From contig NZ_CP024964.1 of assembly GCF_002804105.1 (NCBI RefSeq), positions 62,001 through 126,000 of the forward strand: 64,000 nt of DNA, given 5' to 3'. The DNA comes from Mesoplasma melaleucae. Its GTDB lineage: Bacteria; Bacillota_I; Bacilli_A; Mycoplasmatales; Mycoplasmataceae. A model generated the notes under the pieces. It had not been told where the DNA came from and ran no database searches. It saw nothing but the letters and a program-made list of their open reading frames with translations. The position numbers and the translations under genes are program-made. Shown here piece by piece: positions 4,675 through 11,177 of this stretch (the first letter of the stretch is position 1; every line of letters starts with the position of its first letter).

Positions 4675-5274
4675 TTAAAACTTTTTAGCAGCTTCAATTA
4701 ATTTAAGAACAATTGTTGAAACAATATCTTTTGGTGTTTGTGTGCTTAAAGGTTCAACCTTAACACCAGCTAATAAAATAGGTTCAGCTACTGTAGCTCC
4801 CATGAATTCTCAAGTACCTTTTAAGTAAGCTACATGATCTCCTCATGGGTATCAACCTTTTGGAGCACCTTGAGTTGCAAGAATTTGAATTTTTAATTTA
4901 TCCAATAAACCAATACTTTCTCCTTTAGTTGCATATTTATATGAAAATGTTTGGTTTGCTAATGCAACATGATCAATATAGTTTTTTAACATTCCAGAAA
5001 CTTGGAAGTTATACATTGGTGCAATAACTAAAACTTTATCAACTTCTTTTAATTGGTTAATGTATTTCATACCTTCATCTTCACTTCAGTATGTGCCAAA
5101 TGTTTCAGTTGTTAATGTGTTTGTACCAACAACTAATTTGTTTAAATTTAATTCAATAATTTCGTCTTTTGGATTAACTTTTTTATATTCTTCTAAAAAT
5201 ACTCTAGCCATTTCATGTGAATTTGATTTTTCACTTGGAATAACAGAACCGTTTAATACTAATACTTTACTCAT
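4675..5274 (-). CDS. azoR: FMN-dependent NADH-azoreductase
   Basis: 199 aa, usual for the AzoR/AcpD flavodoxin-like family. Reduces quinones and azo compounds using NADH and FMN. Visible: N-terminal strand and loop [17 protein letters not shown] (FMN phosphate site), [22 protein letters not shown] (the PMYNF-x-P-type flavin block), and [11 protein letters not shown] before a TGA-encoded Trp. Three Trp codons are TGA. The ribosome-binding site AGGAGAA is upstream. A broken paralogue lies at 8039-8635, so this is probably the working copy. Confidence 0.9.
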
Positions 5275-6208: not shown

Positions 6209-7015
6209 ATGGCAGGAGTTTATGACACACATTGTCACTTAAATGACAATATATATATTGAAAACGAAATTTCAAGTAGAGAAATGGTAGCTGAAGCTAA
6301 AAAAAGTGGAGTTGACATCATCAATAATGTTGGATATGATATTAAATCTTCAAGAGTTGCTTTAGTACAAGCGCAAAAAAATAAGAATGTTTGAGCATTA
6401 GTTGGTATTCACCCAACTCATGCACAATTTTTTACAGAAGAAGCATACAACACTTTAGAAATTATAGCTAATGCTGATAAAGTTGTAGGAATTGGTGAAA
6501 CTGGTTTGGATTACTCAAGAGGAACTGATTATAAAGCACAACAAATAGCAGGATTTATTAAGCAAGTAAAATTAGCTAAGAAAATGGACTTACCATTAAT
6601 GCTTCATGTTAGAGATGTTCCGGGATCAACTGATGCTTATGAAGACACTCTATCGATACTAAAAAAAGAAAAATACTTTAGCGGTGTTTTACATGCTTTC
6701 AACGAAAGTTTAGAAGTAGCACAAAAATTTATTGAAAAAGGAATTTTAATATCAGTTAATGGACAAATTACAAGAGATAAAAATTTAAAAAAAGTTATTA
6801 AAGATTTACCAATGAACAGTATTGTTGTTGAATCTGATGCACCATACGATACACCAAAACCGTATAATAAAAAAACTAACGCTCCTAAATACTTACCATT
6901 AGTGGTACAATCTATAGCAAACATTAAAAAAATGAACAGATCAGATGTTGCTGAAATAACAAGAGACAATGCAATGAGAGTATTTTTCTCAATAGATAAA
7001 AAAAACTTAGCCTAA
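6209..7015 (+). CDS. TatD-family metal-dependent hydrolase, copy 2
   Basis: 268 aa paralogue of the gene just upstream. Metal ligands are kept: YDTHCHLND, VVGIGETGLDY, LMLHVRD, VLHAFNES, VVESDAPYDTP. One Trp is TGA (base 6392). It has its own TATAAT (6168-6173) and AGAGGA ribosome-binding site, so the two copies are probably separately transcribed. The substrate loops differ (YDTPKPYNKK versus YLTPHPHRGQ), which suggests diverged specificity (inference). The terminator overlaps its last codons. Confidence 0.9.
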
Positions 7016-7027
7016 GCTAAGTTTTTT
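7001..7027. terminator. Bidirectional terminator between tatD-like gene and metallothionein-like gene
   Basis: An 11-bp inverted repeat AAAAACTTAGC/GCTAAGTTTTT with loop CTAA, flanked by A and T tracts, so it can act on both strands. It overlaps the last codons of the hydrolase and abuts the stop of the convergent small gene. Confidence 0.8.
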
Positions 7028-7028
7028 G

Positions 7029-7139
7029 TTAGTCACATGAGCATTCGCTCATTGTGCAGTTGCAATCTTTGCATGTGCAATTTTCTTTTACACAATCTGC
7101 GCATTTGCAACTTTTACAAGTACATTTGTTATTTGACAT
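7029..7139 (-). CDS. Metallothionein-like cysteine-rich mini-protein
   Basis: 36 aa with 11 Cys at positions 6, 8, 11, 13, 16, 21, 23, 26, 28, 33 and 35, in repeated C-x-C and C-x-x-C spacing, with Lys, Asp and Ser between and no aromatic residue. That composition is what metallothioneins use to wrap Cu(I), Zn(II) or Cd(II) in thiolate clusters. Support for a real gene: a perfect GGAGG ribosome-binding site 7 bases before the ATG, a terminator directly after the stop, and a divergently transcribed Cys-rich partner. It is shorter than the cyanobacterial SmtA type (about 56 aa) and has no His, so homology to known families is unproven. Metal scavenging or storage is inference. Confidence 0.8.
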   Translation of the reverse strand: MSNNKCTCKSCKCADCVKENCTCKDCNCTMSECSCD

Positions 7140-7149
7140 ATGAACCTCC

Positions 7150-7165
7150 AAGGAAATTATTCCTT
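7150..7165. promoter_or_regulatory. Inverted repeat upstream of the metallothionein-like gene
   Basis: AAGGAA, 4-base spacer, TTCCTT: a perfect dyad between the start of the small gene and its probable promoter. It could be an operator or an mRNA hairpin next to the ribosome-binding site. Confidence 0.4.
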
Positions 7166-7188
7166 AATTTAAATAATAGCACTAAATT

Positions 7189-7239
7189 TAAAATATGTAT
7201 ATAAAATATGTATATAAATTATTTTTTATAATGTATAAT
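7189..7239 (+). promoter_or_regulatory. Tandem 13-bp repeat and twin -10 boxes before the ribbon-helix-helix-like gene
   Basis: TAAAATATGTATA occurs twice head to tail (7189-7201, 7202-7214). Two TATAAT boxes follow at 7227-7232 and 7234-7239. Tandem direct repeats are the typical target layout of ribbon-helix-helix regulators, which fits the gene downstream. Confidence 0.5.
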
Positions 7240-7260
7240 CAAATTAAAGAGGTACACACA

Positions 7261-7587
7261 ATGAAAATTAAAGAATTAGAAATAGTTAATAAATTGGGTG
7301 GTAAACCAGTTAATATCTATTTAAATGATGAAACTTTAATATTAGAAGAAATGTTTGAAAAGAAATTTAATCAAAAACCCAATAGATCAAAAATTTATAA
7401 AGAGTTTTTAAAAAAACAATTAGGTGAAGAGCTTTTATCAGAAGCAAATAACTTAGATAAAAATGTTTGCGATTGCTGTAAGCAAGATTATTCAGTAACA
7501 AAGAAACAAATGTATATTTGTAAAGATAAAGATTTATATAAAACTTGCATAGTTTGTCACGAATGCATCATAAAAAATAAAATCTAA
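7261..7587 (+). CDS. Cys-rich protein with ribbon-helix-helix-like N-terminus, possible metal sensor
   Basis: 108 aa from the ATG preceded by AAAGAGG; an earlier in-frame ATG at 7195 lies in the promoter repeats and is unlikely. Residues 16-55 have the pattern of a ribbon-helix-helix DNA-binding fold: strand PVNIYLND, helix ETLILEEMFEKKF, then NRSKIYKEFLKKQL with the typical N-R-S start of helix B. Residues 70-102 carry seven Cys (70, 72, 73, 87, 96, 99, 102) in CDCC and CxxCxxC clusters, a likely zinc ribbon or soft-metal site. It is divergent from the metallothionein-like gene. Role as its metal-responsive regulator is inference; the family was not recognised. Confidence 0.65.
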   Translation: MKIKELEIVNKLGGKPVNIYLNDETLILEEMFEKKFNQKPNRSKIYKEFLKKQLGEELLSEANNLDKNVCDCCKQDYSVTKKQMYICKDKDLYKTCIVCHECIIKNKI

Positions 7588-7590
7588 AAT

Positions 7591-7923
7591 TTAGAATTTA
7601 TTTTTTATCATTTTTGATTCCTCATTCATTCATTCATTAATCTGGTTAAGCATAGGTTGTAAACTTTTTCCTAGATCAGTTAATGAATATTCTACTTTTG
7701 GTGAAACTACAGGATACACTTTAAGCTCAATCTAATCATTTTTTTCTAAAAATCTTAAATTTGTTGTTAGTACTTTTTGACTTATTCCAGCAAATCTTTT
7801 TTCTAATTCATTAAATCGGCATGTTCGGAATGCTAATTCTCTTATAATAAGAATCACTCATTTTGATTTAATAAAACTTAATGTATATTCTAAAGGACAA
7901 AATATCTCCACAAATTCACACAC
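7591..7923 (-). pseudogene. HxlR-family regulator with one in-frame stop
   Basis: 110 codons from a GTG start, all in one frame, with a single TAG at 7734-7732 (codon 64). The sequence is clearly HxlR-type winged helix: CPLEYTLSFIKSKW, ILIIRELAFRTCRFNELEK, GISQKVLTTNLRFLEKND, then after the stop IELKVYPVVSPKVEYSLT and DLGKSLQPMLNQM. HxlR proteins often control a divergent oxidoreductase, and the divergent neighbour here is a broken azoreductase. Both have decayed. One base change would restore the frame, so recent loss or a sequencing error is possible. Confidence 0.8.
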
Positions 7924-8038: not shown

Positions 8039-8635
8039 ATGAGCAAAATTTTAGTTATTAATTCAAGTGTTTTACAAAAAGAAAATTCTGATTCACTTGC
8101 AATGTCAAACTTATTTATAAATGAATACAAAACTTTAAATCCAAATGATGAAGTAGTCTACGTTGATCTAAATGATCTTAAAATGGCAAAAAACATTAAC
8201 AAAAAGCAATATAGGAACATACTTTAATGAACAAGATTCATTTAGTGTTATTAAACAATTAAAAACAGTTGATAAAATTGTAATTAATTTTTTCAATGAT
8301 TAATTATGGGATACCAGCTATCTTAAAAAATTACATTGATCATATAACAATTGCAAACGTTACATTTACTTATAAAGAGTCAACTGATTGTAGTCCAATT
8401 GGATTATTATCCAAACATTAAAAATGTTCAATTATTAGCAACAAAAGGTGGAGCAGGAACACCAAACTCAGAATTTACAGATTATGTAAAAAATATTTGA
8501 AAATTCTTGGATGCAAAAGTTGCAACACCAATCATTAATTAAATGATGGATATACCTCCATATAATGAATATTCACCAGTTCAAAATGCTGAAAAAGTTA
8601 AAGAAAAAATTTTTAAAGCAGCAAAAGCTTTTTAA
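8039..8635 (+). pseudogene. Second azoreductase, broken
   Basis: Starts well: AGAGGA ribosome-binding site, ATG, and KILVINSSVLQKENSDS like the intact AzoR at 4675-5274. The frame is then lost near 8210 and again near 8300 and 8410. Later blocks are recognisable in other frames (ILKNYIDHITIANVTFTYK, LLATKGGAGTP, KIFKAAKAF at the end), and there is an in-frame TAA near 8540. Length and layout match the 199-aa family, so this is a dead paralogue. Confidence 0.8.
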
Positions 8636-8640
8636 TTTAA

Positions 8641-8690
8641 AAAAAACAAAAGACGCTTTAGAGTGCTACCAAAATAGTAAGTATTAAGTA
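8641..8690. repeat. Left copy of an imperfect inverted repeat bracketing the HsdR-IS-Fic segment
   Basis: Contains AAAAGACGCTTT and, after a short gap, TACCAAAATAGTAAGTATTAA. The reverse complement of 12980-13055 contains AAAAGACACTTT and TACCAAAAAGTAAGTATTAA in the same order with similar spacing. The two copies lie 4.3 kb apart. Confidence 0.55.
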
Positions 8691-8790: not shown

Positions 8791-9465
8791 ATGATTGTTA
8801 ATGAAAAATTTTTTGAAGAAGAAGTTGAATCAGAATTACAACTTTTAGGTTGAGAAAAATTAACTGATAAAAATTTTTATAGAAATGATTATGCACAAGT
8901 CATCAATTTTAAAGTTCTTAATGAGTCAATCCAAAGAATTAACAATATTGCAGAAGACAAAGCAGAATTAGTCATAAGAGAAATTAATAAAAATATTGAC
9001 TCATGAGAAAACCTAAATATAAAAGGAATGGAAATCATAAATAATGGGATAAGAATTTATGATGAAATTGAAGAAAGAAATTTAACAATCAAATTAATAT
9101 CAGAAAATGTTGATGAAAATATTTTTAGTTATTATAGACAATTTGAAATAACTGATGGGTACAACAAAAAGAGAATACCTGATATTGTTTTATTCATAAA
9201 TGGATTACCCGTTGCAGTTTTAGAATTAAAGCAACCATTAGCTAATGAAAATATAGAAGATGCTTTCAAACAAAATGAGTCTTTAAAATATTTTAAACCT
9301 GAACTTTGATATTTTAATGTTATAAATTTTGTTTCTAACAGAACATCTTCAAAGTATGGTTCAACAACCTCTGGTTTAAAACATTTTTATGGTTGAAATA
9401 ACTGAAATTTAGAAAAAGGTGAAAAAACAAAAAATAAGCTAATTTCATTATTAGTAAATTATTAA
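8791..9465 (+). pseudogene. Type I restriction enzyme HsdR, N-terminal fragment
   Basis: 224 codons open from an AGGAG-preceded ATG, against about 1000 aa for full HsdR. It matches the N-terminal nuclease domain: EEEVESELQLLGWEKL, then a PD-(D/E)xK core, IPDIVLFINGLPVAVLELKQP (Asp, then Glu-x-Lys). After about residue 200 the sequence ends without the helicase domain. No hsdM or hsdS is present. It is a truncated restriction remnant: the nuclease core could fold, but without the motor it should not cut as a type I enzyme. Confidence 0.8.
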
Positions 9466-9956: not shown

Positions 9957-10905
9957 TGAAAAGAAAAATGAATAGTGAAGATAAACTGACATTTTTAAAA
10001 AATAATAAGATGTTATAAAATATAAAAAAATAGATATTGTTGAATTTATAGTTAAGAATAAATTAAATGAAAAATATTACATTTCAGATTTACTTGAAAT
10101 TTTTTCTGTAAAAAGATCTTATTGAGATAAATATAAAAGTAAGGTAAGTTACGTTAAAAATAAAGATTATAAGATAGTTAAGTTGATAAAAGAAATATTT
10201 GATAATTCTCTAAAACAATATGGAGTAAGAAGAATTAAAAGGGAATTAAAATTAAAATTCTGTTTAACTGTGAATCATAAAAAAATTAGAAGAATATTAA
10301 ATGAGCATGAATTATTCTCTGAGTATGTTATTAAAATAAAATCTAATAGAGCTAAGAGATATGATCATAGAAATTATAGGACTGAAAATCCTAGATTTGC
10401 AAAAGACTTAATAAACAGAAATTTTAGAAAAAGTGAAAAACCAAATCAAATATGATACACAGATGTAAGATATTTAATATCTGAAAATGGAAAAAGATAT
10501 ATGTCTACTTTCATAGACGATTTTGATAAAAGAATAGTGGGTTATCATATATCAAACATGAATGATACAAAATTAGTGATTGAAAGTTTAAAAAATTCAA
10601 TCACTAATTCAGGTATAACAAAAGAAGAATGTAAAAACCTTATAATTCATTCTGATAGAGGCGTTCAATATGTTTCTAATGAATATAAAGCATATTTAAA
10701 ATTTTTAGGAATAAAAAGTTCGATGGGGCAAACAGGAGTTACTCAAGATAATATAGAAATTGAAAGATTTCACTCAGAACTTAAAAAAGGAACAATACAC
10801 AATAATTCATATTTTAAATTTGATATAAATTCTTATGTAGATTTTGTTAAAAATGAATGAATCCCTTGGTATAACAAAGAAGTTCAAAAAAGAAACAAAA
10901 ACTAG
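9957..10905 (+). mobile_element. IS3-family transposase remnant, first element
   Basis: After about 17 codons the frame shifts near 10010, then reads open to TAG at 10905. The OrfB part has the full integrase core: IWYTDVRYL, LIIHSDRGVQY and DNIEIERFHSELKKG give the D-D-E triad. The helix-turn-helix OrfA is missing and the C-terminus stops at WYNKEVQKRNKN, short of the usual end. Most similar within this window to the element just downstream, but clearly diverged from it. Likely inactive. Confidence 0.8.
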
Positions 10906-10955
10906 CTTAAAAATGTTTTACGTTACGATATTATACAGATGTAAGTGAGGATAAT

Positions 10956-11177
10956 ATGGCAAATAGAAAAAACAAAAAATATTCAGCTGAATTTAGAATT
11001 CAAATATTAAAACAAATAGATAATGGAATAAATCCTAAAGTTTTAAGCCAAAAAAATGAAATTAACATTAATACAATATATTCATGAATTAACAGTAGAA
11101 ACGAAGGCAAATTAAATAAACCGGTAGGAAGAACTAAAGAAAACTTTTCAAGTTTAGAAGAGGAAAATATTTTTTAA
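10956..11177 (+). CDS. IS3 OrfA, helix-turn-helix protein
   Basis: 73 aa. The opening KKYSAEFRIQILKQIDNGI, then KVLSQKNEININTIYSWI, is the usual IS3 OrfA helix-turn-helix that binds the element's ends. It ends at TAA within a T6-A6 run (11170-11181). In IS3 elements OrfA and OrfB are joined by -1 slippage, but here OrfB lies in the +1 frame. Deleting one T from the run would fuse the two frames directly, so the run may be a decayed or unusual slippage site. Confidence 0.75.

Follow-up and report, generated by a model that had tools for sequence, protein, structure and literature searches.

The window analysed here, a 64,000-nucleotide stretch of the Mesoplasma melaleucae genome, carries a divergent pair of small genes, one encoding a metallothionein-like protein and the other a putative metalloregulator, which are separated by a spacer with a conserved repeat and predicted promoter elements:

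7000–7027, minus strand: terminator-like hairpin and T run, 3′ of the metallothionein-like ORF
7029–7139, minus strand: metallothionein-like gene with an ATG start, 36 amino acids with 11 Cys, product MSNNKCTCKSCKCADCVKENCTCKDCNCTMSECSCD
7145–7149, minus strand: ribosome-binding site GGAGG, 5′ of the metallothionein-like ORF
7150–7165, minus strand: hairpin AAGGAATAATTTCCTT, conserved in all seven genomes compared, with which the metallothionein mRNA is predicted to begin
7173–7181, minus strand: predicted TG-extended −10 element TGCTATTAT of the metallothionein gene, after the M. florum promoter motif (PMC7745072)
7193–7218, no strand assigned: tandem 13-bp direct repeat, two copies of ATATGTATATAAA, putative operator, from the intergenic alignment
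7227–7239, plus strand: predicted −10 region of the regulator gene with two overlapping TATAAT candidates, from sequence
7261–7587, plus strand: putative metalloregulator, 108 amino acids, with an N-terminal domain (possible ribbon-helix-helix, residues ~15–54) and a C-terminal seven-Cys domain (residues 70–102)

A sequence-only reading of this DNA had reported the 36-codon ORF with its 11 Cys, the GGAGG site and the terminator, and all of these were located as listed. The Cys residues of the product are spaced as CxCxxCxCxxCx4CxCxxCxCx4CxC and Phe, Trp, Tyr and His are absent, and with 31% Cys (the criterion being approximately 20–35%), CxC and CxxC motifs and no aromatic residues the protein has the composition of the operational metallothionein class. 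Within the window, no other stretch of 36 open codons holds more than 8 Cys, against 11 here, and the values from 12 first-order random windows were 6–8. The metallothionein Cys-spacing pattern has a single match genome-wide and none in the reversed control, and the hairpin at 7027–7000 is the sole terminator-like site in its stretch, with 0.1 expected. No prokaryotic metallothionein profile in Pfam or NCBIfam matches the ORF, which is of a length that profiles can miss, and the best Pfam match is a sub-threshold eukaryotic model (E 5.8). Matches to viral nucleocapsid zinc knuckles among the PDB sequences (E 0.4 or worse) were judged to be due to chance, and an Rfam search of the region returned no family. 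The gene is very likely real. A search of the literature, incompletely covered, found no description of a mollicute metallothionein, and the Mesoplasma protein has apparently been undescribed so far.

The same reading had placed a 108-residue gene with clustered C-terminal Cys head-to-head with this ORF, which agrees with what is found on the plus strand: all seven Cys of the regulator lie from residue 70 on, within the C-terminal 40 residues, in the pattern CxCC-x13-C-x8-C-x2-C-x2-C. A 130-residue version starting at the ATG at 7195 was rejected, and the start at 7261 is preferred because conservation begins at the Met encoded there and the longer frame crosses the repeat. Within the Cys tail, C70-x2-C73 and C99-x2-C102 would suit a treble-clef-like site and could hold a structural zinc; the remaining C72, C87 and C96 could then serve for sensing.

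The further claim of a ribbon-helix-helix (RHH) N-terminus is compatible with helix positions and conservation and finds no backing in profile or fold searches. Two blocks of the regulator are near-invariant, residues 13–24 (GGKxVNIYLNDE) and 38–47 (QKPNRSKIYK), and a low-confidence AlphaFold model of the N-terminal domain (pLDDT 59) places helices at residues 23–36 and 44–65, which, following the conserved V-N-I-Y-L stretch, match the strand-helix-helix order without proving an RHH fold. The strand itself is unmodelled in this short model and lies elsewhere, at residues 6–12, in the full-length model, which is also weak (pLDDT 71) and folds the Cys tail into two strands and a short helix. No RHH profile match was found in Pfam, NCBIfam or the PDB sequences, an absence that does not speak decisively against the fold, the RHH families being very divergent, and hhalign against a small RHH set gave a probability of 0.1. 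Foldseek and VIA-align with the full model and Foldseek with the N-terminal model yielded no informative fold match, nor does the regulator match HTH_5, the winged helix of ArsR/SmtB, the NikR profiles of Pfam and NCBIfam, or the penicillinase-repressor winged-helix family of CopY. The matches from Pfam, NCBIfam and PHROGs (FYVE_2, GMT-wHTH and others) are sub-threshold and of unrelated or unknown function, and the main PDB sequence matches, de novo TIM barrels covering residues 4–30, consist of several short weak pieces and were judged to be chance. The odds that the N-terminal domain adopts the RHH fold appear to be about even.

The regulator gene and the metallothionein-like ORF are found as a divergent pair in all seven sampled Mesoplasma genomes, with regulator identities of 67–74% to the copy in the window. 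Each genome has a 36–37-residue ORF with 11 Cys on the opposite strand, 111–131 bp from the regulator gene; the lack of conservation that would have contradicted the sequence-only reading is therefore not seen, the 11 Cys being kept in all seven genomes with the spacing shifted in one species, and the seven Cys of the regulator are all invariant. In the metallothionein-like gene dN is 0.02–0.12 and dS is approximately 0.5 or more, or saturated, except in the closest pair, and its Cys codons swap between TGT and TGC with the residue remaining Cys. As judged from these sequence comparisons, both genes are under strong purifying selection in Mesoplasma. Beyond the genus, no relative of the regulator was found among 313 other genomes of the order, and its N-terminal domain was not found among 385 further genomes sampled from the phylum. 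Scans of plasmids, viral contigs and a genome-contig collection with exact seed peptides, which distant relatives would escape, returned none besides M. grammopterae. Order-level matches with E values of 0.002–0.01 proved to be frames with stops or unrelated proteins without the Cys tail, and were rejected. The regulator thus appears to be specific to Mesoplasma among the genera searched.

The spacer between the genes is variable among the seven genomes, and within it the tandem ATATGTATATAAA repeat is near-invariant, with three copies in one genome (L007). The double repeat is matched nowhere else in any of the seven genomes, even with up to three mismatches allowed (reversed control, 0). The M. 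florum promoter motif consists of a TAWAAT −10 element with a TGN extension and a start 6–7 bases downstream (PMC7745072), and by this rule the metallothionein transcript would begin near A7165. The mRNA would then open with the leader hairpin AAGGAA..TTCCTT directly 5′ of GGAGG. In the computed folds of six leaders the hairpin forms by itself, at −5 to −8 kcal/mol. A general promoter scan of the region is at chance level, with 4 found and 6.5 expected, and the promoter assignment therefore rests on conservation. The −35-like hexamer of the metallothionein promoter sits inside the repeat. Since the repeat spans the −35 regions of the two promoters as predicted, a protein bound to it would be well placed to repress both genes. 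The tandem repeat is likely to be an operator, and the pair is likely to be regulated through it.

The seven Mesoplasma genomes have no P1B-type heavy-metal ATPase above the family cut-off and no cation diffusion facilitator (CDF) exporter, for both of which control genomes were positive, and no ArsR-family gene (HTH_5), for which 14 of 14 controls were positive. Weak partial P1B matches in Mesoplasma were read as other P-type ATPases. The absence of the three classes makes a buffer consisting of metallothionein only plausible, and among the classes tested (P1B ATPase, CDF and ArsR) the metallothionein would be the only recognisable soft-metal defence.

The neighbours of the pair in the genus include tatD (six of seven genomes), msrA (three of seven) and a gene for an HxlR-type regulator, from which an azoreductase-like gene diverges. 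In L007 transposase-like frames (350–1206) stand in the place of tatD beyond the metallothionein gene, and the pair is intact. In the window, the HxlR-type gene adjoins the pair at 7591–7900 on the minus strand and carries an in-frame TAG at 7732–7734; it is uninterrupted in several other Mesoplasma loci (L003–L007). The azoreductase/flavodoxin-like gene divergent from it (8039–8690, plus strand) is split into several frames, and a second copy at 4675–5274 on the minus strand is intact. A short restriction-subunit-like frame (8791–9465, plus strand) and then transposase-like frames (10183–11177, plus strand) suggest a zone of mobile-element insertion or decay downstream of the pair.

Small Cys-rich proteins of a similar kind are also present elsewhere in the Mollicutes. 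A looser Cys pattern was applied to 317 genomes of the order and the matches were filtered for short ORFs by reading the loci; most of those in other genomes were low-complexity TGT/TGC repeats and were dropped, and metallothionein-like ORFs of approximately 21–50 residues were retained in about 25 non-Mesoplasma Mollicutes genomes. In ten genomes read from the sister genus g11 (L123–L132), a mini-metallothionein gene of 21–28 residues lies tail-to-tail with an ArsR-family gene, of which the tested member matches PF01022 with an E value of 1.2e-12 and the other nine are near-identical by eye. The promoter of the g11 mini-metallothionein carries the 12-2-12 inverted repeat TCTATATAGATA-GT-TATCTATATAGA, perfect in most loci and altered at one or two positions in some, and the described targets of SmtB-type repressors are 12-2-12 repeats (PMC8790569). 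The combination of mini-metallothionein, ArsR-family gene and 12-2-12 repeat implies that an SmtA/SmtB-like logic is present in the family, and in Mesoplasma the partner of a comparable small protein would be an unrelated regulator that has a putative direct-repeat operator. In most g11 loci a lipoprotein gene with a CxxC motif comes next.

The g11 arrangement resembles the Mesoplasma pair in that both belong to the same Mollicutes family and join a short CxCxxC protein to an adjacent small Cys-containing regulator; it differs in its shorter protein with 6–8 Cys, its tail-to-tail ArsR-family gene and its 12-2-12 operator. In mycobacteria, the small Cys-rich metallothionein MymT is under the control of the metal sensor RicR, and the Mesoplasma pair similarly has a small Cys-rich metallothionein-like protein with a putative metal sensor, although no NCBIfam match is found in the pair and RicR belongs to the CsoR family. 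CopY of enterococci is a small repressor with a C-terminal Cys motif; the Mesoplasma regulator is likewise small with a C-terminal Cys motif, but has no winged-helix family match and its Cys spacing differs from CxCx4CxC. For the control of metallothionein by SmtA/SmtB of Synechococcus and NmtA/AzuR of Anabaena the model is derepression by metal (PMC8790569); with these systems the Mesoplasma pair shares the pairing of a small Cys-rich protein with a putative transcription factor and a putative operator at the promoter. In contrast to both, the Mesoplasma regulator is not of the ArsR/SmtB family, HTH_5 being without match in the genus, its putative operator consists of 13-bp direct repeats rather than a 12-2-12 repeat, and the metallothionein is without match to a prokaryotic metallothionein profile. 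A 2019 review names NikR as the sole RHH protein regulated by metal (PMC7055735). Provided that its N-terminal domain is indeed an RHH, the Mesoplasma regulator would resemble NikR in joining an RHH DNA-binding domain to a putative C-terminal metal domain, but where NikR has its C-terminal domain the Mesoplasma protein has a seven-Cys tail of approximately 35 residues.

We consider it somewhat better than an even chance that the pair constitutes a soft-metal buffering module in which the regulator releases its operator on binding metal and the metallothionein is then made. In such a module the N-terminal domain of the regulator would bind the tandem 13-bp repeats and block the metallothionein promoter together with its own; as metal rises, the seven-Cys C-terminal domain would bind it, the metal-bound regulator would leave the operator, and the metallothionein would be made, its 36 residues wrapping Cu(I), Zn(II) or Cd(II) in 11 thiolates, until free metal drops. 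We infer that metal is probably the inducing signal. Other inferred parts of the scheme are the binding of metal and of DNA, the choice of repression over activation, the identity of the metal and the fold. The soft-metal module is favoured because the pair occurs in seven of seven genomes, the regulator Cys are invariant, each metallothionein has 11 Cys, purifying selection acts on the genes and a unique repeat covers both −35 regions, and also because P1B ATPases above the cut-off, CDF exporters and ArsR sensors are absent, which would call for sequestration as a route, and g11 has an ArsR-paired mini-metallothionein with a 12-2-12 repeat. Counting against it, the searches link the regulator with none of the DNA-binding families, and the HxlR, azoreductase-like and MsrA gene neighbours suggest redox stress as well as metal.

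The neighbourhood could thus be taken to mean that the module answers oxidative or electrophile stress, with a zinc-bound Cys cluster that is oxidised or alkylated and the 36-mer scavenging thiol-reactive agents as a thiol scavenger or storing zinc instead of detoxifying metal. Quinones are sensed by HxlR regulators such as YodB, and besides the HxlR-type regulator with its divergent azoreductase-like gene nearby, msrA adjoins the pair in three species; however, a CxC/CxxC array of this density is what metal-thiolate clusters typically show, and the repeat is confined to the spacer of the pair and absent from the azoreductase and msrA promoters, which leaves a redox function rather unlikely. 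The repeats lie directly upstream of an extended −10 promoter with no required −35, a position from which a metal-loaded 108-residue protein might recruit polymerase as an activator, in the way that metal-loaded Ace1 activates CUP1 in yeast. The repeats also overlap the promoter region of the regulator itself, which is the usual layout of autorepression, and the known regulators of bacterial metallothioneins are mostly repressors, so that activation seems improbable. That the two genes are neighbours with no functional link, the regulator controlling only itself or something else, would be in keeping with the fixed neighbourhoods common in small genomes and with a link between the genes that is drawn from sequence; yet the pair is kept in seven of seven genomes while the adjoining tatD and msrA come and go, the unique conserved repeat lies in the shared spacer and both proteins are Cys-rich, and we regard such independence as the most doubtful of these alternatives.

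On the soft-metal reading, a wider proposal can be put forward tentatively, with rather less than an even chance of being correct: that a second class of metal-regulated RHH repressor, combining RHH with a treble-clef-like seven-Cys domain and a direct-repeat operator, has control of the Mesoplasma mini-metallothionein where the sister genus has an ArsR sensor, that sequestration is the only recognisable soft-metal defence, and that mini-metallothioneins are widespread and overlooked in the Mollicutes. A confirmed RHH fold would make the regulator the second metal-regulated RHH protein beside NikR (PMC7055735). Within this genus, for which the tests made gave no recognised soft-metal exporter or ArsR sensor, M. 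florum serves as a near-minimal model organism. If true, a module of just two genes, metallothionein and sensor, would rank among the smallest metal-homeostasis systems; it would be testable in a tractable organism described as without pathogenic potential (PMC7745072) and of possible use as a compact metal biosensor. With an ArsR-family protein and a 12-2-12 operator in one genus, and direct repeats with an unrelated protein in Mesoplasma, the exchange of one metal sensor for another would become directly testable.

The short metallothionein-like ORFs in other Mollicutes point to a category of small genes which may escape gene callers. One Mollicutes genome (L141, 2623–9491, G170) has four identical 30-residue mini-metallothionein genes with 8 Cys, approximately 2–2.5 kb apart. 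Mini-metallothioneins that contain His (CHCExC.., at L138 2647–2730, L139 2614–2730 and L140 2696–2764) occur in three genomes belonging to a different family of the order, and a reductase-like gene (MKIGFLGAGHLG..) is located near them. A distant genome of the class encodes a 126-residue acidic protein (L062, 1222–1602) with a Cys-, Glu- and His-rich tail (DECECDECHCEECDDECEC...CCCCHH) that has the appearance of a metal-binding sequence.
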